Shown here: in pieces, positions 2,362 through 12,448 of the stretch
How the letters are laid out: each line of letters begins with the position of its first letter
Position numbering within the stretch: the stretch's first letter is position 1
Assembly (NCBI RefSeq): GCF_011299615.1
Contig: NZ_CP049861.1
Span: forward strand, 1,488,001 to 1,552,000
Direction: 5' to 3'
DNA from: Erysipelothrix sp. HDW6C
GTDB taxonomy: Bacteria; Bacillota_I; Bacilli_A; Erysipelotrichales; Erysipelotrichaceae
DNA: 64,000 nucleotides
The notes under the pieces: model-generated
Database searches by the model: none
Seen by the model: only the letters and a program-made list of their open reading frames with translations
What the model was told of the DNA's origin: nothing
Translations under genes and position numbers: made by a program

Positions 2362-3099
2362 TTAAAGGTTTATATTGAAAGAATAGTCCATTTGGTAATT
2401 CTCTGCAACCAAACCTTCTTGAATGCACAATTCATAGAGGGCATGAATACCTTGATGTTGATGAATATTAAGGCGATAAAGATAATTTAATGAATCCACC
2501 GCCACTTTATAAACTTCCTGTGGATTCTTTGCATCAAATTCGCGCAGGAAGTCCTTTACATGATCAAGAGACCATGTCGCTGTCTTTATTGTTCGGATAA
2601 TGAGGATCCGTGTGATTTGTTCAATGTCATATAAACGGTAGTTATTTCCCTTCCCTCGAACTGGGTAAAGAAGCCCTTCACGCTCCCAGTGTCGAATCGT
2701 TGTATCAATAACATCAGTGAGTTGAGATGCTTCTTGGATTGTTAGTAACTTCTTAATCTTAAAATCTTTGTACAAATGACCTGAAGTAAACAGTTTTACT
2801 GTTTTTTGTGCATGATCAAGTTCACGAATGAGCTTAACTTGTTTCTCAGAACACTTTAGAAGAGCATTATTGACTTGCTTATCATGAATAAGTTGAACAA
2901 TATCAATTATTTCATCACGACCAAATCCTGCCTGCATGGCAAGAACACACCGCAAATAGTTGCAATGCTTTTCTGTGTACGTTCGATATCCATTTGAAGT
3001 GCGATTGGATGCAGGAATAAGCATTGCTTCTTCGTAATTCCGTACTGTCGATGTACTGATGTTAAATTTTCTTGCGATATCAATGGGTCGATAAGTCAC
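2362..3099 (-). CDS. MerR-family regulator with two MerR DNA-binding domains (TioE-like)
   Basis: Predicted transcription regulator of 245 residues. Residues about 3-70 form one MerR helix-turn-helix (IARKFNISTSTVRNYEE, then the wing with NGYRTYTE); residues about 115-185 form a second (IQEASQLTDVIDTTIRHWE, then NNYRLYDIEQ). Tandem MerR domains in one chain are the pattern of the TioE group; TioE-like regulators occur beside UvrA-like resistance proteins, as here. There is no C-terminal cysteine pair of metal-sensing MerR proteins, so the ligand is more likely a small molecule (inference). The start is GTG at 3099, with GAGGTG seven bases upstream. A promoter with 17-base spacing precedes it. 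It is followed after 123 bases by the uvrA-like gene on the same strand. Confidence 0.85.
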   Translation of the reverse strand: MTYRPIDIARKFNISTSTVRNYEEAMLIPASNRTSNGYRTYTEKHCNYLRCVLAMQAGFGRDEIIDIVQLIHDKQVNNALLKCSEKQVKLIRELDHAQKTVKLFTSGHLYKDFKIKKLLTIQEASQLTDVIDTTIRHWEREGLLYPVRGKGNNYRLYDIEQITRILIIRTIKTATWSLDHVKDFLREFDAKNPQEVYKVAVDSLNYLYRLNIHQHQGIHALYELCIQEGLVAENYQMDYSFNINL

Positions 3100-3164: not shown

Positions 3165-3193
3165 TAAAAAGAAGAAGTATCCCTACTTCTTCT
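3165..3193 (-). terminator. Terminator of the PTS/dha operon
   Basis: Inverted repeat GAAGAAGTA / TACTTCTTC (3171-3179 and 3184-3192), loop of four, followed on the minus strand by a T run. The dhaL stop codon lies inside the stem. Confidence 0.8.
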
Positions 3194-3821
3194 CACTTAA
3201 GTCATTGATAACACAGTAATCTGCAAGAGTTTCGATGAGCAACTTACACGAAGTCGCCCCGGCATCATAGAAACCAACACTTCGTTCGCCGAGCCGTGAT
3301 GCGCGTCCTAAGCGTGCTTGCATATTTTTTGTTGCCTCCCAACCCCGATTCGCACCTGCTTTTAGTGCTTCCATGGATGCTGAAAACGTTAACCCATCAT
3401 CAATTCCTGCTTGAAGACTTAAAATTGCTGCACTGAGCGTATCAATGAGTGTTTTATCGCCCGGTTTAGCTCCGGCAAGATCGCAAATTGCATCATAGGA
3501 TTTAACGAGCCCATCCAAGATATCTTGTTCATTGGCGGTATCTTGTTTGAATCCCATTGACAGTTTCCGAAACAATGTACCATATATCGGCCCCATTGAA
3601 CCACCAATATCATCGATAAGAATAAGTGCTAATGTTTGTATCGCTTCACGTATTCCCATTGCTTCATTAAGATTTTCTTGAGCCATTAAGAACCCTTTTT
3701 TCATGTTGTTTCCATGATCGCCATCGCCAATATACCCATCAATTTCACTTAAGTATGCTGAGTTCGTGTCAATTGTGGCAATCATTTGCCTCACAAGTTG
3801 TGGATTTTTAGTACTAATCAT
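3183..3821 (-). CDS. dhaL: Dihydroxyacetone kinase-like subunit DhaL
   Basis: Nucleotide-binding subunit of a two-subunit ketone kinase. The family motif GDGDHG (residues 32-37), whose aspartates hold the Mg-ADP cluster, is present, as are GGSMGP and AGATSCK-like loops; 212 residues is the usual DhaL length. ATG at 3821 overlaps the end of dhaK by eight bases, so the pair is translationally coupled. No dhaM is present, so whether phosphate comes from PEP through a DhaM encoded elsewhere or from ATP (as in erythrulose kinases of this family) cannot be told from sequence. The surrounding tetrose/pentose enzymes argue that the substrate may be erythrulose or a related ketose rather than dihydroxyacetone. 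That is inference. Confidence 0.9.
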   Translation of the reverse strand: MISTKNPQLVRQMIATIDTNSAYLSEIDGYIGDGDHGNNMKKGFLMAQENLNEAMGIREAIQTLALILIDDIGGSMGPIYGTLFRKLSMGFKQDTANEQDILDGLVKSYDAICDLAGAKPGDKTLIDTLSAAILSLQAGIDDGLTFSASMEALKAGANRGWEATKNMQARLGRASRLGERSVGFYDAGATSCKLLIETLADYCVINDLSEKK

Positions 3822-4830
3822 GGTGACTGACCTTTAGACCTGGCGTATACACATCCATTGCCAACAATGGTTGCGTACGATCGTCAACTTTCATAAGCGT
3901 TAAGGTAGCACCTTGCATGTCGAGCGATGTAAAGTAGTTTCCTACCAAACTATCGAAAATTTTGAGCCCTCTTGATGTTAAGACCTTGGTAACATCATTG
4001 TAAAGAATGAATAATTCAAGCTCAGGTGTCGCACCCAGACCACTCAGCAACACGAATACTGTATCTCCAGCGATTAGACCACTGTCTGCAATCAGATAGT
4101 CAACAAGTTCCTGTGCAATTGCTGAAGAATCTTTTAAATCACTGACACGTATCCCTGGTTCTCCATGATGACCAATACCAAATTCGATTGTTCCTGGTGA
4201 AATCTCAAAATTTGCTTTCTCATTTGCAGGTAATGTACAGGGGCTCAGTCCAACACCAATACTCCATGTACGATCAATGGTATATTGCGCAATTTCAATA
4301 ACTTCATCCAATGCCCCCCCTTGATTTGCAAGAGCACCGGCAGTCTTCCACATGAGAATTTCTCCAGCCACCCCTCTTCTTTTTTCACGCTCATCGTGTG
4401 ATGCGCTGGCGACATCATCATTTGCAACGACAGTCTTAACAATAATATCATCGTCACCAGCCATATCGATGGCCATTTTCACGTTCATGTTGTCTCCAGC
4501 ATAATTTCCATACAGACACGCAACACCCATTCCCATATCTGCTTCAGTAAAGGCATCATAGAACACCTTTGCTGAGGGTGATGAAAATATTTCTCCGATT
4601 GCTACAGAATCGACCATATTTTTACCACAATACCCGATAAATGCCGGTTTATGACCACTACCGCCTCCTGTAACAACCGCAACACGTGGTTTGTCCTTGT
4701 GCATATAGTTTGAAACTGCAACACGTTTATTTCGATTACTACGTTTTAAGATATCCACGTTGGCTTGGAAATATCCATCCAACATATCTTCCACTGCTTG
4801 CAATGGATCATTAATGATTCGCTGCATCAT
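3814..4830 (-). CDS. dhaK: Dihydroxyacetone kinase-like subunit DhaK
   Basis: Substrate-binding subunit of a DhaK-type ketone kinase. VTGGGSGHKP at about residues 53-62 is the conserved loop, and His222 in GHHGEPG is the residue that binds the ketone covalently as a hemiaminal in characterised DhaK. The C-terminal SLDMQGATLTLMKVDD matches the family. Start chosen at ATG 4830 (a second ATG follows at 4827), preceded by GGAGGTGATA; an in-frame upstream extension to 4917 would overlap rpiB deeply and has no ribosome site. Overlaps the 3' end of rpiB by about 20 bases and dhaL by 8. Homologues in mycobacterial erythritol/threitol pathways phosphorylate L- or D-erythrulose, and there too they neighbour RpiB and TIM-barrel isomerases. 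Confidence 0.88.
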   Translation of the reverse strand: MMQRIINDPLQAVEDMLDGYFQANVDILKRSNRNKRVAVSNYMHKDKPRVAVVTGGGSGHKPAFIGYCGKNMVDSVAIGEIFSSPSAKVFYDAFTEADMGMGVACLYGNYAGDNMNVKMAIDMAGDDDIIVKTVVANDDVASASHDEREKRRGVAGEILMWKTAGALANQGGALDEVIEIAQYTIDRTWSIGVGLSPCTLPANEKANFEISPGTIEFGIGHHGEPGIRVSDLKDSSAIAQELVDYLIADSGLIAGDTVFVLLSGLGATPELELFILYNDVTKVLTSRGLKIFDSLVGNYFTSLDMQGATLTLMKVDDRTQPLLAMDVYTPGLKVSHHD

Positions 4831-5278
4831 TATCACCTCCGTTTTCATATGCATCAATACAGGCAATCTTCCGTGCACTGTTCTCATTACTAAACTCCAG
4901 TTCAATCCATCGGTCAATTAATGTTTTTGCATAAAGAGGCGCTATGATGCGTGCCCCAAAACATACGAACTGACAGTTGTTACTGAGTATACTTCGCTCA
5001 ATTGAAAATGAATCATGTGCTACCGCAGCACGGATACCTTTGACCTTGTTTGCACTGATTGCCATACCAATGCCTGTTCCACACATAAGGATTCCATGAT
5101 CAGCCTTACCATCGCGAACGTATTCTGCTGCAGTTATGGCCGTTTCTGGGTACATGGACGGATTTGTATCATGAACTCCCATATCAATAACTTCAATTCC
5201 TTTACTTTCTAAGTGTGCCTTAATTTCTTCTTTAAATTCAAATGCCGCTTCATCGCAGCCGAGTACAATTCGTTTCAT
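4811..5278 (-). CDS. rpiB: RpiB/LacAB-family sugar-phosphate isomerase
   Basis: Aldose-ketose isomerase of the ribose-5-phosphate isomerase B family, 155 residues. The catalytic cysteine sits in GILMCGTGIGMA (about residue 66), and the N-terminal GCDEAAFEFK corresponds to the GCDHAG region of RpiB, with Glu-Ala-Ala instead of His-Ala-Gly. Loss of that histidine suggests a substrate other than ribose 5-phosphate; family members convert erythrulose 4-phosphate to erythrose 4-phosphate, or act on allose 6-phosphate or galactose 6-phosphate. The ATG overlaps the stop of the preceding gene as ATGA. Product identity inside the operon is unproven. Confidence 0.85.
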   Translation of the reverse strand: MKRIVLGCDEAAFEFKEEIKAHLESKGIEVIDMGVHDTNPSMYPETAITAAEYVRDGKADHGILMCGTGIGMAISANKVKGIRAAVAHDSFSIERSILSNNCQFVCFGARIIAPLYAKTLIDRWIELEFSNENSARKIACIDAYENGGDNDAANH

Positions 5279-6135
5279 GACAGCTCTCCTACAATTTCTT
5301 TGAGATTATACAAACCCTCAACAGCCAATGCTTCACCTGTTTCAGCAAATTTTCGCCAAATTGCGCAATTCGCATTGAGTTCTTCGAAACTTGGATCGAA
5401 TGACTCGATTACACAAGGGCCGTCATAACCAACCTCTTCGAGTGTTATAAAAAGCTCACGCCATGGCACAAGTCCAGTTCCAGGAACACCGCGGTTGCTT
5501 TCGCAAACATGTACATAACCCAAGTACTGGTTGCCACAACTCAATATTGCATCACGAAAACTGGTTTCTTCACGAATCATATGAAAGCAATCGAGATGAA
5601 CTTTTATATTTTCAGTTCCTACATCCTTACAATACTGCACAGCATCCGTTGCGATATTTAAGAAGTGTGTTTCAAATCGGTTGACTGCCTCCACACAAAT
5701 ACGTAACTTTGGATTTATCATTTCTGCATAGTGGCAAATTTCTTGCATTGCTTCAACGGACCATTGCCATTCTTGATCCGTGCGTGGTTTGCCTGTGGTA
5801 TAGCCCCATGCTGCATAGTTGACACCACCTAAAATATGAGAACCAATTGCCTTATTAATATCGACCATCATTTTCATATGGTTAATTCCATGTTTTCTGA
5901 TTTCAGGATCGGGGGAAATTAGATTTGTTTCCCTTGACAGTGTTGTGGATGTAACAGGCGTAATGTCAATTCTTTGAAGCGCCTTCACAACCAAATCTGT
6001 TGGAAAGGTTTCTGGGTGAGAAATTGCAAAGTCAATGGCTTCAAACCCAAGTTCCTTCGCTTTATCAATAATCCATAAATCCTTCTCTAAGAAGTCTTCT
6101 GTCCATATAAATGTATCAACTCCAAATTTTATCAT
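5275..6135 (-). CDS. TIM-barrel sugar epimerase/isomerase (D-tagatose/D-psicose 3-epimerase-like)
   Basis: Single-domain TIM barrel of 286 residues. All four metal ligands of ketose 3-epimerases can be placed: Glu149 (CVEAVNRFE), Asp182 (HLDCFHM), His209 (YVHVCESNR) and Glu244 (VIESFD), with Arg215 contacting substrate in known structures. The NRFE, FHM and ESNRGVPG strings are characteristic of the tagatose/psicose 3-epimerase branch; the L-erythrulose-1-phosphate isomerase LerI belongs to the same superfamily, so a phosphorylated tetrulose is an alternative substrate. ATG at 6135 follows AGGAGG at good spacing. It lies between the AraA-like gene and rpiB and overlaps rpiB by four bases. Confidence 0.83.
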   Translation of the reverse strand: MIKFGVDTFIWTEDFLEKDLWIIDKAKELGFEAIDFAISHPETFPTDLVVKALQRIDITPVTSTTLSRETNLISPDPEIRKHGINHMKMMVDINKAIGSHILGGVNYAAWGYTTGKPRTDQEWQWSVEAMQEICHYAEMINPKLRICVEAVNRFETHFLNIATDAVQYCKDVGTENIKVHLDCFHMIREETSFRDAILSCGNQYLGYVHVCESNRGVPGTGLVPWRELFITLEEVGYDGPCVIESFDPSFEELNANCAIWRKFAETGEALAVEGLYNLKEIVGELS

Positions 6136-6143
6136 AGTGCCTC

Positions 6144-7577
6144 CTAACGAATAATTTTCGGTGTTATTTTTAATAGTCGGAATAATTCTGTAATGGAATC
6201 CAGTTCAACTGCAAATGTAACGACAGTATGATGATTACCGCCTAATTCTAACCACTGTTGAATACCATCATAGAAGTTTGGTTTTGGAATCCAAGTCACT
6301 TGAGCAACTGGAAGCTGTGGTGCTGATTGTTGGGTATCAATTGCCGTCACCTCATTAACAAGGATCTCAAAATCGTAGCGCATATCTGTCATTCCGACAA
6401 CATACCCCATACCCGTAGTACCACGAAATACCATCCGTGCTGGATCACTTTTACCACCAATACCAAGTGGATTGACCTGTATTGTGGGTTTTGTTGCACT
6501 CAATGTTGGATCAACTTCTAACATGTGAGATTGGAAAATATACTCATTGTCCACTTCAAAGTTATAGGTATAGTCTTCCATAAATCCGGTTTTCTTATTG
6601 TTTGCCATCACTTTTAGAATTCGATCAAGTGCTGCGGTCTTCCAATCTCCTTCTCCAGCGAATCCAATCCCTTTTTCATTTAAACGTTGTATGGCAAATC
6701 CTGGTAATTGATCTAAGCCTGTTAGATCTTCAAAATTTGTTGAAATCGCATTATAACCATGACGACTCATAAATGATAAAAGAGCATGCTCAATTTTTGC
6801 TTGATAACGTAATTGCTTGATAAAAAATGCTTCCGAGTTATTTCTAAAATCAAAGTCATACTTTTCCCGATATTCGGACATAAGGATATCGACATCTGCT
6901 TCACTAACGTTCGAAATTGCTTCCACAAGATCACCGACTCCATAGTAGTCAACTTCCCATCCAAAACGAATATGCGCCTCAATCTTGTCACCTTCAGTAT
7001 CAGCTACGTTTCGCATATTGTCCCCAAAACGAACAACCTTTACATTCTTTGATGCATAATAGCCAACAACACCAATCATCCAATGTTTTACACTTTTAAT
7101 AAACTGGGGCTGTTCCCAATGACCAAATACAATTCGGTTTTGCATATTCAAACGTTTCATAATATAACCATACTCTCGATCACCATGTGCAGACTGATTA
7201 AGATTCATAAAGTCCATATCAATCGTATCCCACGGTAATTTCTCATTAAATTGTGTTGCAATGTGAACAACTGGTTTTTGCAAAAGTTTCATTCCCTTAA
7301 TCCACATTTTTGCTGGTGAGAATGTATGCATCCATGACATAACACCCAAAACATTATTATCGTAGTTTGCTTCTTTCATGATGTTGACGATGTGGTCCGA
7401 TGACTTTAAAACACCTTTAAATTTTATTGTGTATGGGAGATTCTGTTTATTTAAACTATCGATAATTTCAAGTGCTTGTGTTTCGACGATTTGAATGCTT
7501 TCATCACCATAAAAAGCAACACTACCGACAACAAACCAGAATTCACCTTTGACAGTTTCTTGCATGAAATTGCTCAT
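6144..7577 (-). CDS. L-arabinose isomerase family protein
   Basis: Full-length AraA homologue of 477 residues. The catalytic residues known from E. coli AraA are conserved at Glu309 (AGEGDWKTA), Glu334 (FMEDYTY), His351 (SHMLE) and His450 (NHHTV); HTFSPAKMWI and MDFMNLNQSAHG also match closely. The enzyme class converts unphosphorylated L-arabinose to L-ribulose (or D-galactose to D-tagatose) with Mn. No araB kinase or araD epimerase is nearby; instead the gene sits in a PTS/DhaKL operon, so the true substrate may be another aldose. ATG 7577 follows AAGGAGG. An 11-bp perfect hairpin lies just upstream between it and the aldolase gene. Confidence 0.88.
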   Translation of the reverse strand: MSNFMQETVKGEFWFVVGSVAFYGDESIQIVETQALEIIDSLNKQNLPYTIKFKGVLKSSDHIVNIMKEANYDNNVLGVMSWMHTFSPAKMWIKGMKLLQKPVVHIATQFNEKLPWDTIDMDFMNLNQSAHGDREYGYIMKRLNMQNRIVFGHWEQPQFIKSVKHWMIGVVGYYASKNVKVVRFGDNMRNVADTEGDKIEAHIRFGWEVDYYGVGDLVEAISNVSEADVDILMSEYREKYDFDFRNNSEAFFIKQLRYQAKIEHALLSFMSRHGYNAISTNFEDLTGLDQLPGFAIQRLNEKGIGFAGEGDWKTAALDRILKVMANNKKTGFMEDYTYNFEVDNEYIFQSHMLEVDPTLSATKPTIQVNPLGIGGKSDPARMVFRGTTGMGYVVGMTDMRYDFEILVNEVTAIDTQQSAPQLPVAQVTWIPKPNFYDGIQQWLELGGNHHTVVTFAVELDSITELFRLLKITPKIIR

Positions 7578-7594
7578 ATTTCCTCCTTATGAAT

Positions 7595-7620
7595 ACAGCT
7601 ACTGATGGCTCAGTAGCTGT
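7595..7620 (-). repeat. Intercistronic 11-bp perfect hairpin without T-tract
   Basis: ACAGCTACTGA and its exact complement TCAGTAGCTGT flank a four-base loop, between the aldolase stop and the ribosome site of the AraA-like gene. No T run follows on either strand, so it is unlikely to be an intrinsic terminator; an mRNA processing or stabilising element is a better guess. Confidence 0.65.
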
Positions 7621-7626
7621 TGTAGT

Positions 7627-8490
7627 CTAATATTTCGATGCTTGACCTAGCGTATTGAGAACCGTCAACTTATGCTTGACAACGTTCTTTACAGCATTGT
7701 TTGCAGTTGGATATACTTGATTTGGCTCATACAATTGATGATTATCATTTAAGAATATACGCAGTTCATCAAAGAAAGCACTTTTCACATCACTCGATAT
7801 ATTGACTTTTGCAACACCATATTTTACGGACTCACTGACTTCTGAGTCGGGGTTACCCGAACCACCGTGTAATACAAATGGTAAATCAAGGGTTTGATAC
7901 AATTCCTTTAAGAGTTCCAGGTTGAGTTTAGGTGTGAAATCTTTTGGGTAAAGTCCGTGTGCGGTTCCAATTGCGACTGCAAGAGTATCGATACCTGTCT
8001 CTTCGACAAATTGCTTTGCCTTCTTTGGATCAGTGTAAATGATTTCACTGCTACCGCCTTCAAAAGATAAACCAGTATTCCCAATTGTTCCAATCTCAGC
8101 TTCGACAGAAACACCTACAGAATGCGCAATTTCAACAACACGCTTTGTGATGGCGATGTTATCACTGAAGTCTGCATGTGATGCATCAATCATTACGGAA
8201 CTATAACCATTCTTAATAGCGCGTGTCACGTCGTAAATTGAACCCCCATGATCAAGATGAATAACCACAGGCACCTTGCTGTTTCTGGCATATTCACGAA
8301 CAACAGCGACGAAATTATCCCCAATATAATCAATTTCATCTGGATGAATTTCTAAAATTACCGGAGAATTTGTTTCCTCGACAACCTCCATAATTGACTT
8401 CAAGATATCAAAACTGCAAATGTTGAAAGCAGGCACTGCGAATTTATTCTCACGGGCGACACTCAACAACTCTTTCATTGTATATAACAT
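7627..8490 (-). CDS. Class II fructose/tagatose-bisphosphate aldolase family protein
   Basis: Zinc-dependent aldolase of 287 residues that should cleave a ketose (bis)phosphate to dihydroxyacetone phosphate and an aldehyde. Zinc-site histidine in VIHLDHGG (residues 78-82), Asp in the same motif, EAEIG at about residue 130, AIGTAHGLYP (173-181) and LHGGSG (207-212) are all present. Length matches GatY/KbaY (about 285) and B. subtilis FbaA. Its place directly after a fructose-type PTS suggests a dedicated catabolic aldolase rather than the glycolytic one. ATG 8490 is preceded by AGAGGAT. Confidence 0.88.
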   Translation of the reverse strand: MLYTMKELLSVARENKFAVPAFNICSFDILKSIMEVVEETNSPVILEIHPDEIDYIGDNFVAVVREYARNSKVPVVIHLDHGGSIYDVTRAIKNGYSSVMIDASHADFSDNIAITKRVVEIAHSVGVSVEAEIGTIGNTGLSFEGGSSEIIYTDPKKAKQFVEETGIDTLAVAIGTAHGLYPKDFTPKLNLELLKELYQTLDLPFVLHGGSGNPDSEVSESVKYGVAKVNISSDVKSAFFDELRIFLNDNHQLYEPNQVYPTANNAVKNVVKHKLTVLNTLGQASKY

Positions 8491-8511
8491 GATTTATCCT
8501 CTTTTCTTATT

Positions 8512-9888
8512 CTAAGCTGTAGCGTAATTATTCTTTCTCTTTAAAAAGCTAACCATAAGTGCTGTAACAACTGTACCTGCTACAAGACTCAACAGATACA
8601 TGGGAAGATTATTCATAACATTTGGAATAAACATAACCCATATACCACCGTGTGGAGCAAGTGAAGCACATCCAAAAGCAAGTGACATTGCAGCAGCAAC
8701 TGCTGAGCCTGCCATTAAACTTGGAATGACGCGGATTGGATCGGTAACTGCAAATGGAATTGCGCCTTCAGTAATATATGAAGCACCAAGAATCCAACAT
8801 GACTTACCAGCTTCACGTTCTTCAAGTGTAAATCGTTTTGGAAACAAGACCGTTGCAAGTGCAAGACCAAGCGGCGGTGTCATCCCTGCAATCATACATG
8901 CAGCAATTGGCTCATAGACACCTGTAGACATAAGTCCAACCGCAAATGTTGAAATTGCTTTGTTAATGGGTCCACCCATATCTGATGCCATCATGACACC
9001 AATTAAAAGACCAAAGAGTATCCCACTTGTTGTACCAAGTCCGTTTAAGAAGTTGGTAAGTTGTGCGAGTAACCATGCTACGGGTTCACCAACTACAAAG
9101 ACCATAATTAAACCAGTAATTGCAACTGAGAGCAGTGGCACGATAATGAGACTTGCCAATGTTTCAAAACTCTTAGGCACTTTTAAGTATTTAACAATCA
9201 GAAGTACAAGGTATCCAGCAAGTAAACCACCCACCATACCACCAAGGAATCCTGAGCCACCATTCTTAGCCAACATCCCTGCAACCAAACCAGCAGCTAT
9301 CCCCTGTTGTCCAGCGATTGAGTAGGCAATCCCTGCTGCTAGTACGGGTACCATTAGTCCGAATGCTACCGTTCCTCCAATATTGCTGAATGCTTCAGCC
9401 AGCACATTGTAGTTATCAGCAGTCGGGTCTGATGCAGTAATACCAAATGCAAAACTAATTGCAATCAGAATACCACCGGCAATAACAAAGGGTAACATGT
9501 AGTTTACTCCGGTCATTAAGTGCTGATACAATCCAGTTTTTTGACCCGAACTATTGGATTTTTTTGCCGTCGTTGACAAGAGCTCAACATCTTTACCAGA
9601 TAATGCATCCTCGATAACCAATCGAGCATTTTTTATTGCTTTAGCAGATCCAATAGTTAATGTCTTTTTACCATTAAAGCGTGATAAATCAATTTTTTTA
9701 TCACACGCTAGAATCACGACATCAGCATCGCGAATTTCTTTCTCTGATAAGACATTTTCTGTTTTTGTTCCTTGTGTTTCAATTTTAATATCATGACCCA
9801 TTTCACGAGCAGCTTTTTCAAGTGCTTCAGCGGCCATGTATGTATGCGCAATCCCCGTTGGACATGCTGTAATTCCGACAATCTTCAT
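8512..9888 (-). CDS. PTS fructose-family transporter subunit IIBC
   Basis: Membrane permease and phosphocarrier of a phosphotransferase system, 458 residues. The IIB domain (about 1-100) carries the phosphorylated Cys9 in ITACPTGIAHTYMAAE, the hallmark of fructose-type IIB. A linker leads to the hydrophobic IIC domain (about 125-450) with eight or more membrane segments and the substrate-site strings SDMGGPINKA and PPLGLA. IIA is a separate gene 11 bases upstream. Fructose-type systems usually deliver ketose 1-phosphates, but specificity varies (mannosyl-glycerate, allose), so the imported sugar is not assigned. ATG 9888 follows AGGAGGAGACAAC. Confidence 0.92.
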   Translation of the reverse strand: MKIVGITACPTGIAHTYMAAEALEKAAREMGHDIKIETQGTKTENVLSEKEIRDADVVILACDKKIDLSRFNGKKTLTIGSAKAIKNARLVIEDALSGKDVELLSTTAKKSNSSGQKTGLYQHLMTGVNYMLPFVIAGGILIAISFAFGITASDPTADNYNVLAEAFSNIGGTVAFGLMVPVLAAGIAYSIAGQQGIAAGLVAGMLAKNGGSGFLGGMVGGLLAGYLVLLIVKYLKVPKSFETLASLIIVPLLSVAITGLIMVFVVGEPVAWLLAQLTNFLNGLGTTSGILFGLLIGVMMASDMGGPINKAISTFAVGLMSTGVYEPIAACMIAGMTPPLGLALATVLFPKRFTLEEREAGKSCWILGASYITEGAIPFAVTDPIRVIPSLMAGSAVAAAMSLAFGCASLAPHGGIWVMFIPNVMNNLPMYLLSLVAGTVVTALMVSFLKRKNNYATA

Positions 9889-9899
9889 GTTGTCTCCTC

Positions 9900-10349
9900 C
9901 TATTTTTCCTCAAGAATGATAAGAATCTCTTCCGCTGTCACTGCTTTCTTTATGCGATTACGGAATGTCTCATCCATAAAACGTCGCGCGAGTTTACTGA
10001 GAATACTCATATAATCTGCTTCTGTATTTTCAGGTATCGCAATCATAAATATATACTGAATTGGCTCTTCATCAAGGGACTCATAATCCTTAATGTTCGC
10101 TGCTTTTCCTACTGCAATAGCAGGACTCACGACATTACTGCTTCGTGCGTGAGGAATCGCAAGTCCGAACCCAATTCCCGTACTGTACTCAGATTCACGT
10201 TTGAATAAATCTTGTACATACCCATCAACATTTGATACATAACCTCCCTTCGATAACATGTCTGCCATTTCTTCAAACAATTCTTTTTTTGACGTTGCAT
10301 GCAAATGCAAGTTGATGATATCTTTTCGAATCAGTTCATGTAGTTCCAT
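9900..10349 (-). CDS. PTS fructose/mannitol-family subunit IIA
   Basis: Cytoplasmic phosphocarrier of 149 residues that takes phosphate from HPr and hands it to IIB. The active His67 lies in GLAIPHARS. Start is set at ATG 10349, preceded by AAGGAG with eight bases; the in-frame GTG at 10358 lies inside that ribosome site and is not credible. First gene of the eight-gene carbohydrate operon, divergent from the PRD regulator, which carries a related IIA-like domain. Confidence 0.9.
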   Translation of the reverse strand: MELHELIRKDIINLHLHATSKKELFEEMADMLSKGGYVSNVDGYVQDLFKRESEYSTGIGFGLAIPHARSSNVVSPAIAVGKAANIKDYESLDEEPIQYIFMIAIPENTEADYMSILSKLARRFMDETFRNRIKKAVTAEEILIILEEK

Positions 10350-10399
10350 TATCAGCACTCCTTCTACATCTAAAATTTATCATGTCTCTATTTCAACAA

Positions 10400-10442: not shown

Positions 10443-10458
10443 GCAGAAATATTTCTGC
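10443..10458. promoter_or_regulatory. Perfect 16-bp palindrome, candidate regulator operator
   Basis: GCAGAAATATTTCTGC is a perfect palindrome in the 176-base divergent region between the PTS operon and its regulator, about 24 bases upstream of the regulator's -10. A symmetrical site here suits a dimeric DNA-binding regulator acting on both promoters. Confidence 0.5.
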
Positions 10459-10525: not shown

Positions 10526-12448
10526 ATGAAGAACTTTCGCATACACCAAATTCTTACTACCCTCATCGAGTCAGATGCCTTTATTAAGACAAAGGACATT
10601 GCACGTCAACTCGATGTTTCATCACGTACTATTTTTAATGATATTGACTCACGTCAAATGGAACGGACACTCCATGGTGCAACAATCGAAAGACGTCCAA
10701 ATGTTGGCCTTCGGCTGATTGCAACTCCCGAACAAAAGCGAAAAATATCATACGAAATTTTCAATCATACCCATACGATGTCGCACCGCATTGAAACTGA
10801 TGATATAGCCATCATCATCGATGAACTTTTACGAAACCATAAACCGGTATCGATTGATGACTTAAGTCAGCGTGTTTATCGTTCTAACATCACCGCACTG
10901 TTAGATGCAACACAAGTTTACGTTGAAAAACACCACTGTAAGTTGGTGAGAAAGCCCTATCGTGGGATAACAATCGAGGGTAATGAGTCCGATAAACGCA
11001 GTGTTTTACGATCTTTGTTATTACAAAACCTTCGGTATGATGACGTGAGTGCGAACCAAAACGGACGCGTACCTTACTCATTTATGCAACTACTCGTTCA
11101 AACATACTCACAACAATGGATTGATTCTTTATTGCATATTATTGAGCGCTCGGAAACCAACATGGGATTAAAGTATACTGATTATGATGTTGCTGTATTA
11201 CTTACAAAACTAGCCATTCTTGTTGAACGCTCTGTTGGTAAGCACGCAATTCAAGAAAAAACACTAATCAATGAAAAACCGCAAGAATACTATATTGCCA
11301 TGATGATAAAAGACAGCATTTCTGACTCCTTTTATCTTGAACTTACATCCGGTGAAATCTATGAAATTATGAATTATCTTATGGTTACACGAAAAAAAGA
11401 GAATTCCGACTTAGTCATTCATAACCAAATTAGTCTAGAGGTTGTTGATAAGTTTATAAAACTAGTGGGTACATACCTAAACTTTGACCTGCACCACGAT
11501 AGTGAGTTGGCTAATAATTTGCTGAACCATTTACGACCAGCAATACGCCGTATTAAATTTGGAGTCTCCAGCGAGAATCCACTGCTTGATCGCATCAAAT
11601 TTGAATATACACATGTTTATATTGCTGTGATGACCTCGATTGAGTTTATTGAGAATACCGAACACGTTGTGTTTGATGCCAACGAGATTGGTTATATTTG
11701 CCTACATATTGCGGCTGCTTTAAATCGTGGAACCCAATCACGCTATGTAAGAGGTATTCTAATTTGTGATGACGGTTTATCAATCGAAGGTTACGTTAAA
11801 AGTAAAATAGAGCAAAAATTTACAGAAATAGACGTTCAGTCTACCATTCAGTATTCATCTTATAATCATGATTTTATTGAAGGCTTTGATTTGATAATCA
11901 ATGCCACAAATCGCGCAATCATTGGCGATAAAGTGGTCAATATTAGTGTTGCGCTAACACGAGAAGATATCACTGCCATCAATGCAGCGCTCTTTACTTT
12001 CGAACTGCGCCGAACAATGTTAATCAAAGATACGCTCAAGAATCATATTTATATTTTTAACGAGTCCCTAACAGATCGTGATGCAATACTTAAAAAATAT
12101 AGTGGTTATCTTGAGATTGATAATTATGTATCCTCACATTTCTTTGAGTCAATGATGCTTCGGGAGAAATCGTCACCTACCGCAATGGGACGGGGTGTTG
12201 CTGTTCCCCATGGCTCGCGAAGTCATGTCTACTCATCAATTGTGCTTGTCATAAAGCTGGAGAAAGAAATCATATGGAATGATCAATTGGTTGATATCAT
12301 TTTTCTTACAGCGATTAGCACTAAAACGGATGACAATTACAATCTATTCTTTAGAAAACTGTTCACGATCATTTCTGATGATGATATGATTAATAGAATA
12401 CGCATTACAAATGATCCTAATGAAATTGAGGCAATACTTCTGGATTAA
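10526..12448 (+). CDS. PRD-containing transcriptional activator of the BglG/MtlR/LicR type
   Basis: Regulator of 640 residues. N-terminal winged helix-turn-helix (DIARQLDVSSRTIFNDI, about 24-40) marks it as a DNA-binding activator of the MtlR/LicR/ManR group rather than an RNA-binding antiterminator. Two PTS regulation domains follow (about 175-290 and 300-400, with HHDSELANNLLNHL), then a IIB-like segment (ILICDDGLS, about 410-420) and a C-terminal IIA-like domain with His562 in GVAVPHGSR. Members are switched by phosphorylation from HPr and the cognate EII. Divergent from the eight-gene PTS operon, which is its likely target. ATG 10526 follows AAGGAGATGAA. A terminator shared with the convergent ABC gene follows. 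Confidence 0.88.
   Translation: MKNFRIHQILTTLIESDAFIKTKDIARQLDVSSRTIFNDIDSRQMERTLHGATIERRPNVGLRLIATPEQKRKISYEIFNHTHTMSHRIETDDIAIIIDELLRNHKPVSIDDLSQRVYRSNITALLDATQVYVEKHHCKLVRKPYRGITIEGNESDKRSVLRSLLLQNLRYDDVSANQNGRVPYSFMQLLVQTYSQQWIDSLLHIIERSETNMGLKYTDYDVAVLLTKLAILVERSVGKHAIQEKTLINEKPQEYYIAMMIKDSISDSFYLELTSGEIYEIMNYLMVTRKKENSDLVIHNQISLEVVDKFIKLVGTYLNFDLHHDSELANNLLNHLRPAIRRIKFGVSSENPLLDRIKFEYTHVYIAVMTSIEFIENTEHVVFDANEIGYICLHIAAALNRGTQSRYVRGILICDDGLSIEGYVKSKIEQKFTEIDVQSTIQYSSYNHDFIEGFDLIINATNRAIIGDKVVNISVALTREDITAINAALFTFELRRTMLIKDTLKNHIYIFNESLTDRDAILKKYSGYLEIDNYVSSHFFESMMLREKSSPTAMGRGVAVPHGSRSHVYSSIVLVIKLEKEIIWNDQLVDIIFLTAISTKTDDNYNLFFRKLFTIISDDDMINRIRITNDPNEIEAILLD

Follow-up and report, generated by a model that had tools for sequence, protein, structure and literature searches.

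Which sugar feeds an operon whose enzymes fit no standard pathway? The question is raised by eight genes of Erysipelothrix sp. HDW6C, located in a stretch of 64,000 nucleotides (contig NZ_CP049861.1, positions 1,488,001 to 1,552,000, assembly GCF_011299615.1), hereafter the window. All eight lie on the minus strand at 3183–10349 and were assigned by NCBIfam and Pfam scans to enzymes IIA and IIBC (EIIA, EIIBC) of a fructose-type phosphotransferase system (PTS), a class II aldolase, the isomerase AraA, a triosephosphate isomerase (TIM) barrel protein resembling ketose 3-epimerases, an RpiB-family isomerase, and the kinase subunits DhaK and DhaL (Table 1). The same eight-gene set had been named in a preliminary description made from the sequence, and the scans bear it out on a single strand. 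All of its family names fit, and only the term "AraA-like" was too weak, as this protein scores 660.4 bits against the cut-off of 622 bits of the curated equivalog NF002795. The operon looks like an undescribed route in which a rare ketose is taken in and its three- and four-carbon pieces become intermediates of central metabolism. Specifically, we propose, with confidence evenly balanced between yes and no, that it would serve the catabolism of a ketose of probably seven carbons and converge on erythrose 4-phosphate.

The neighbourhood search suggested earlier showed that the gene set recurs, with a differing isomerase family, at nine loci, all within eight genomes of a single bacterial family, indicative of a gene association beyond chance. 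The TIM barrel, aldolase and PTS are present in all nine, and RpiB, DhaK and DhaL in eight; the ninth (L139) ends at a contig edge inside its cupin gene. TIM barrel, RpiB, DhaK and DhaL were thereby shown to be the shared core of the operon family. The TIM barrel is a better marker of the operon than AraA: at an E-value of 1e-50 or better (at least 66% identity) it was found in 8 of the 272 genomes searched in the family, and it occurs in 3 of 392 genomes of a phylum sample and 6 of 234 of an order sample, all belonging to that one family. It was absent from the other 12 members of the genus searched, and among the 20 plasmid matches listed none exceeded 34% identity, with no record at 60% or more.

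Among the shared operon genes, the isomerase is the sole slot that changes family, being filled by AraA at one locus, by a cupin resembling lyxose isomerase at another, and by a two-domain cupin at seven. The second of these operons (L114) lies in the same genome at 2145704–2153468 and encodes an aldolase, IIA, IIB, IIC, a 177-residue cupin, the TIM barrel, RpiB, DhaK, DhaL and a XylB-like kinase. Its core proteins are 70% (TIM barrel), 73% (RpiB), 69% (DhaK) and 62% (DhaL) identical to those of the AraA operon, and its cupin gave an E-value of 3e-57 against 2y0o, a D-lyxose ketol-isomerase structure. In seven further genomes (L115, L116, L135–L138 and the truncated L139) the TIM barrel is accompanied by another aldolase, IIA, IIB, IIC, a two-domain cupin about 304 residues long, RpiB, DhaK and DhaL; the L116 operon runs on into two transketolase halves. 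The two-domain cupin is strongly conserved, with 85–93% identity to the first of five aligned sequences. It gave no informative family match and, in a sequence search of the PDB, weak cupin matches only; an AlphaFold model from its single sequence (predicted local distance difference test score 30) was not used. Because it takes the slot of AraA and of lyxose isomerase, it is a candidate new family of sugar isomerases.

The size of the molecule handled downstream is indicated by RpiB. The position of the ring-opening His99 of Escherichia coli RpiB is occupied by Ser in all eight operon RpiBs (seven aligned; the eighth, from L138, read separately). The E. coli entry in the alignment, 2vvr, carries Asn at this position; another, 1nn4, carries His. 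The operon RpiB also has Glu in place of His10 and Lys in place of Arg137. Ser99 was likewise observed in RpiBs of Klebsiella, Listeria, Enterococcus gilvus, Coccidioides immitis and a Rhizobium locus (L152) called erythritol-type by its gene content, and His99 is kept in three others: the orphan RpiB of the same genome, one from an allose operon and one from L. pentosus. The ring-opening His of canonical ribose 5-phosphate isomerase B is thus missing from the operon enzymes, and assignment to the ribose 5-phosphate type was rejected on account of this Ser. Erythrose 4-phosphate is unable to form the usual ring, so loss of the His is chemically sensible, and the residues suggest four-carbon chemistry. 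The report on the C. immitis RpiB structure describes the same replacement of the ring-opening His by Ser, and its authors suspect shorter substrates (PMC3212906). For a Yarrowia relative of RpiB, deletion is reported to show that it is needed in normal erythritol use (PMC5992420). A Ser99-type RpiB was also seen, next to a Tpi-like protein, beside OiaX on a plasmid of Rhizobium sp. N871 (L150, 3564–7447); this OiaX is annotated as 3-oxo-isoapionate-4-phosphate decarboxylase, and the short-substrate signature thus occurs in an apionate-type locus too.

The AraA protein has kept the catalytic Glu, Glu, His and His (motifs EGDW, MEDY, SHM and HHT, aligned with 4r1o). In its substrate pocket, it has Phe22 where all 85 relatives compared have Leu, and Val20 where 83 of the 85 have Gln, so that the motif reads GSVAFYG against GSQHLYG in most relatives. 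Counting all 127 columns at which at least 93% of the 85 relatives agree, it departs at 9, these two included. Up to 12 of the columns are changed in other divergent relatives, and the number of changes is therefore not unusual in itself; their position is. In a study of L. plantarum AraA, Leu18, the counterpart of residue 22 here, is given as substrate-positioning (PMC11172353). Taken together, the Ser99-type RpiB and the Leu-to-Phe change in AraA make four carbons the most likely size of the piece released by the aldolase. The outline drawn in the preliminary description (a ketose 1-phosphate, aldol cleavage, phosphorylation by DhaKL and a pentose-phosphate intermediate) is still the best-supported reading, and its product of two to four carbons can be narrowed to one of most likely four. 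Val20 is common to just two AraA relatives (L060 and L061), both of which lie beside a TIM-barrel protein and, as named by eye, transketolase-like halves. These two variants (at about 8.0–12.4 kb) also share Ile28 and Asp193 with the AraA of the window. In both, the TIM-barrel protein follows AraA, and AraA is preceded by the transketolase-like halves, an HpcH-like aldolase, a dehydrogenase and TRAP-like transporter genes (all by eye except AraA and the TIM barrel); they perhaps represent another non-arabinose AraA pathway.

AraA is the odd part of the operon, as its relatives are sparse and come without the operon. A search of 59 other genomes drawn from its genus, family and order gave no relative at an E-value of 1e-3, and five others were found among the 392 genomes of the phylum sample. 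The best 80 relatives from a species collection reach a top identity of 54–55%. None of these 80 loci holds a second operon of such make-up; a distant EIIBC was found in two of them, a distant aldolase in one and a distant TIM barrel in two, and an AraD-like gene stood in the fetched flank of 51 (some flanks were cut). Since other isomerases fill the same slot in the sister operons, AraA most likely works on the cleaved-off piece, after the aldolase. The same exchange of families speaks against ordinary L-arabinose use with an AraA caught by chance in a PTS operon, which we consider very improbable even though the protein exceeds the equivalog cut-off. The operon shares the AraA family and its catalytic residues with the araBAD pathway and differs from it in the changed pocket residues, the lack of AraB and AraD, and the PTS setting. 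The AraD family (PF00596) gave no match in the genome, although a control did, and the ordinary L-arabinose pathway was rejected for this reason; the FGGY kinases comprise one GlpK and two XylB-like proteins, with no AraB assignment. The lack of an AraD match would also leave L-ribulose or L-xylulose without an outlet in an octulose or pentose route. There the aldolase would free an aldopentose, L-arabinose in the AraA operon and D-lyxose in the second one, to be isomerised, epimerised at C3 and phosphorylated to a pentose phosphate. Such a route fits the families of AraA and lyxose isomerase, both those of pentose isomerases, and the XylB-like kinase included in the second operon. It nevertheless seems quite unlikely, given the altered AraA pocket and the lack of the ring-opening His in the operon RpiB when the orphan RpiB has it.

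The TIM barrel was found to keep the metal and substrate motifs of D-psicose/D-tagatose 3-epimerases; all four motif patterns are present in eight of the nine operon copies and three of the four in L139. Its best NCBIfam model is D-psicose 3-epimerase, where its 184 bits fall short of the cut-off of 300. It resembles 3-epimerases of free ketoses rather than EryC, and an EryC-like identity was rejected, the best match to the protein in the EryC position of the Rhizobium locus covering 54 residues at an E-value of 1e-4. A ketose 3-epimerase would interconvert L- and D-erythrulose. DhaK keeps the catalytic His and Asp motifs, with the residues of true dihydroxyacetone kinases, and DhaKL is by family and residues probably a ketose kinase, with erythrulose as the predicted substrate. 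The same DhaK residues and the fructose-type PTS would also suit a hexulose route, in which a ketohexose 1-phosphate is cleaved to dihydroxyacetone phosphate (DHAP) and glyceraldehyde, the isomerase yields dihydroxyacetone for phosphorylation by DhaKL, and the TIM barrel and RpiB deal with side products. We regard this as unlikely: the TIM barrel and Ser99-type RpiB, conserved throughout the operon family, would be left without a role, and neither AraA nor lyxose isomerase nor any cupin is known to us to isomerise a triose.

The entry enzymes belong to the fructose PTS by the NCBIfam subfamily-domain scores of IIA, IIB and IIC. The aldolase keeps the class II metal and catalytic motifs HLDH, EAEIG, AHG and HGG. 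In the DPR motif, it has Asn in place of the Arg that is present in all three bisphosphate aldolases compared (4to8, 1gvf and 7ncc) and that we take to bind the second phosphate; the Arg is missing from all 15 PTS-linked aldolases compared. Close counterparts are found in Listeria and E. gilvus, with identities of 72–74% for the aldolase and 65% for the EIIBC beside it; the aldolase of the second operon in the same genome is 51% identical. Few forks of the trees were well supported, and the sole grouping used is that of the operon aldolase with its Listeria and E. gilvus counterparts (support 100/99). In both of these genomes, the IIA-IIBC-aldolase module stands alone, and a DhaM-DhaK-DhaL-Tpi-RpiB-transketolase cluster lies near it, with RpiB about 13 kb and about 8 kb from the aldolase, respectively. 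Proximity of the entry module to genes of the tetrulose-phosphate type in two further genera speaks for a functional link, short of proof. The L. innocua genes of this module (L104) presumably correspond, by gene order, to lmo0357-0360. In a pan-genome paper, lmo0357-0360 appear as annotation only (PMC2996996). The operon seems to be a mosaic in origin, with PTS, aldolase and isomerase as exchangeable entry parts. Separately, the fructose-type PTS operons at L105, L109, L117, L119, L120 and L137 were seen to carry two class II aldolase genes, different from each other and arranged in tandem.

The free-standing modules of Listeria and E. gilvus would also fit a funnel for several sugars, in which the PTS and aldolase handle one ketose, and AraA, the TIM barrel, RpiB and DhaKL handle separately imported tetroses or tetruloses; L128, with DhaKL and RpiB but no aldolase, points the same way. 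The core is, however, accompanied by PTS and aldolase at all nine loci, and the operon of the window has no second transporter, so this arrangement is improbable.

For the ketoheptose reading, the following sequence of reactions is proposed. EIIA and EIIBC, judging from their family, would import the ketose as its 1-phosphate. The aldolase, from its family, its missing Arg and the enzymes downstream, would split this into DHAP and an unphosphorylated aldotetrose. The AraA-family enzyme would then convert the aldotetrose, L-threose by the C2/C3 stereochemistry of AraA, to L-erythrulose, and the TIM barrel and DhaKL, in either order, would turn this into D-erythrulose 4-phosphate. Finally, the Ser99-type RpiB, as its residues suggest, would yield D-erythrose 4-phosphate for transketolase. 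The genome contains one transketolase and gave no phosphoketolase match, so that erythrose 4-phosphate can go to transketolase. The C2/C3 configurations of AraA and lyxose isomerase substrates, cut to four carbons by hand derivation, are those of L-threose and L-erythrose. Both lead to L-erythrulose, which would explain the presence of an epimerase in the constant core, and the three- and four-carbon pieces together make the imported sugar a ketoheptose. By a further hand derivation, the weakest step of the proposal, fructose-type aldol stereochemistry with L-threose would give L-galacto-heptulose (perseulose), and tagatose-type stereochemistry L-gulo-heptulose. The full modular form is offered only tentatively, with odds clearly below even: a ketoheptose 1-phosphate would be cleaved to DHAP and an L-aldotetrose, an isomerase being recruited to suit the sugar (AraA where the tetrose is L-threose, lyxose isomerase where it is L-erythrose, and the two-domain cupin in the other operons), and all would lead to L-erythrulose and erythrose 4-phosphate, with perseulose as the AraA-operon sugar under fructose-type stereochemistry.

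Several observations weigh against this proposal. RpiB scores 131.5 bits, below the 240 bits of the D-erythrulose 4-phosphate isomerase model NF051858. AraA is a true AraA by its score; it occurs in just one of the nine loci, and the AraA-bearing operon in one genome. The XylB-like kinase of the second operon would suit a pentulose. The argument from the aldolase Arg depends on three reference sequences and on the phosphate-binding role taken for this residue. The entry modules of Listeria and E. gilvus have no tetrose isomerase next to them, and in the cupin operons the aldolase is only about 35% identical to that of the AraA operon, so that substrates probably differ between loci.

How does the operon compare with described systems? 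The likeness drawn earlier to the erythrulose routes of mycobacteria was apt. Brucella EryABC-EryH-EryI and M. smegmatis LerK-LerI-DerI likewise convert erythrulose phosphate to erythrose 4-phosphate through an RpiB-family isomerase, and the actinobacterial form of the erythritol/threitol route uses a DhaK-type kinase, as the operon would. Unlike these routes, the operon contains no polyol dehydrogenase or erythritol kinase (all eight genes being in other families), has a PTS, an aldolase and an aldose isomerase in front, and has a TIM barrel that is not EryC-like. The Listeria and E. gilvus genes share the Ser99-type RpiB and, at 43% identity, DhaK; they differ in forming two separate clusters, in having a Tpi-like isomerase instead of the TIM barrel, in lacking an aldose isomerase and in containing DhaM. 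E. coli YdjI is described as a class II DHAP aldolase acting on an octuluronate 1-phosphate, with the sugar acid L-arabinuronate as acceptor (PMC11194214). It is thus similar in cleaving a long ketose 1-phosphate and different in its sugar-acid acceptor, and it matches the operon aldolase less well than do several fructose and tagatose bisphosphate aldolases. In searches of open-licence full-text literature (subscription papers, including the primary Brucella and Mycobacterium route papers, being outside this scope), no operon of such make-up appeared among the results listed, and neither did a bacterial PTS pathway for heptuloses or perseulose.

The genes are closely packed, with intergenic distances of −17 to +49 bases: gaps of 11 bp (IIA to IIBC), 21 bp (IIBC to aldolase), 49 bp (aldolase to AraA) and 8 bp (AraA to TIM barrel), followed by overlaps of 4 bp (TIM barrel/RpiB), 17 bp (RpiB/DhaK) and 8 bp (DhaK/DhaL). 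The DhaK start was corrected to 4827 (MQRIIND...), a longer open reading frame of 367 residues being a mechanical TTG extension; the IIA start was taken as the ATG at 10349, and a GTG at 10358 is also allowed by the list of reading frames. The candidate terminator extends across the dhaL stop and consists of a perfect inverted repeat of 10 bp with TTTTT after it on the minus strand. Its RNA folding energy is −13.3 kcal/mol (z −3.7); it was absent from the output of a simple terminator scan. Scans of the window were near chance for promoters (30 found, 25.2 expected) and at chance for catabolite-repression elements (8 found, 7.55 expected). Just downstream of the operon, at 2362–3099 on the minus strand, lies a gene for a 245-residue regulator with two MerR-type helix-turn-helix (HTH) domains, and at 2–2236, also on the minus strand, a UvrA-like reading frame (named by eye) runs past the window edge.

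Table 1. Operon and flanking regulatory features, in positions of the window
Feature	Position	Strand	Evidence
PTS fructose-family EIIA	9900..10349	-	TIGR00848, 116 against cut-off of 103.5 bits; PF00359
PTS fructose-family EIIBC, predicted ketose 1-phosphate delivery	8512..9888	-	TIGR01427 and TIGR00829 above cut-offs
Class II ketose 1-phosphate aldolase (predicted)	7627..8490	-	NF006042/PRK08185 above cut-off
AraA-family isomerase, predicted aldotetrose (L-threose) isomerase	6144..7577	-	NF002795, 660 against 622 bits
Ketose 3-epimerase-like TIM barrel, predicted L-erythrulose to D-erythrulose	5275..6135	-	PF01261
RpiB-family isomerase, predicted D-erythrulose 4-phosphate/erythrose 4-phosphate isomerase	4811..5278	-	PF02502
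DhaK, ketose-binding kinase subunit	3814..4827	-	PF02733; catalytic His and Asp motifs kept
DhaL, nucleotide-binding kinase subunit	3183..3821	-	TIGR02365, 159 against 138 bits
Divergent HTH-PRD-EIIA regulator, probably of the operon	10526..12448	+	PF08279, PF00874, PF00359
16-bp perfect palindrome, candidate operator, between operon and regulator	10443..10458	.	Single copy in the window at up to 2 mismatches
Candidate terminator, hairpin then T run	3170..3193	-	Inverted repeat and RNA fold

What would the operon mean for these bacteria? To our knowledge, free seven-carbon ketoses are not among the sugars known for PTS bacteria, and if the proposal is true, they would be an added sugar class for such organisms. 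The AraA and lyxose-isomerase families would then have a role with tetroses, and the cupins would be predicted to include a further sugar isomerase. For tetroses that arise within the cell, the operon would also be a source of candidate enzymes.

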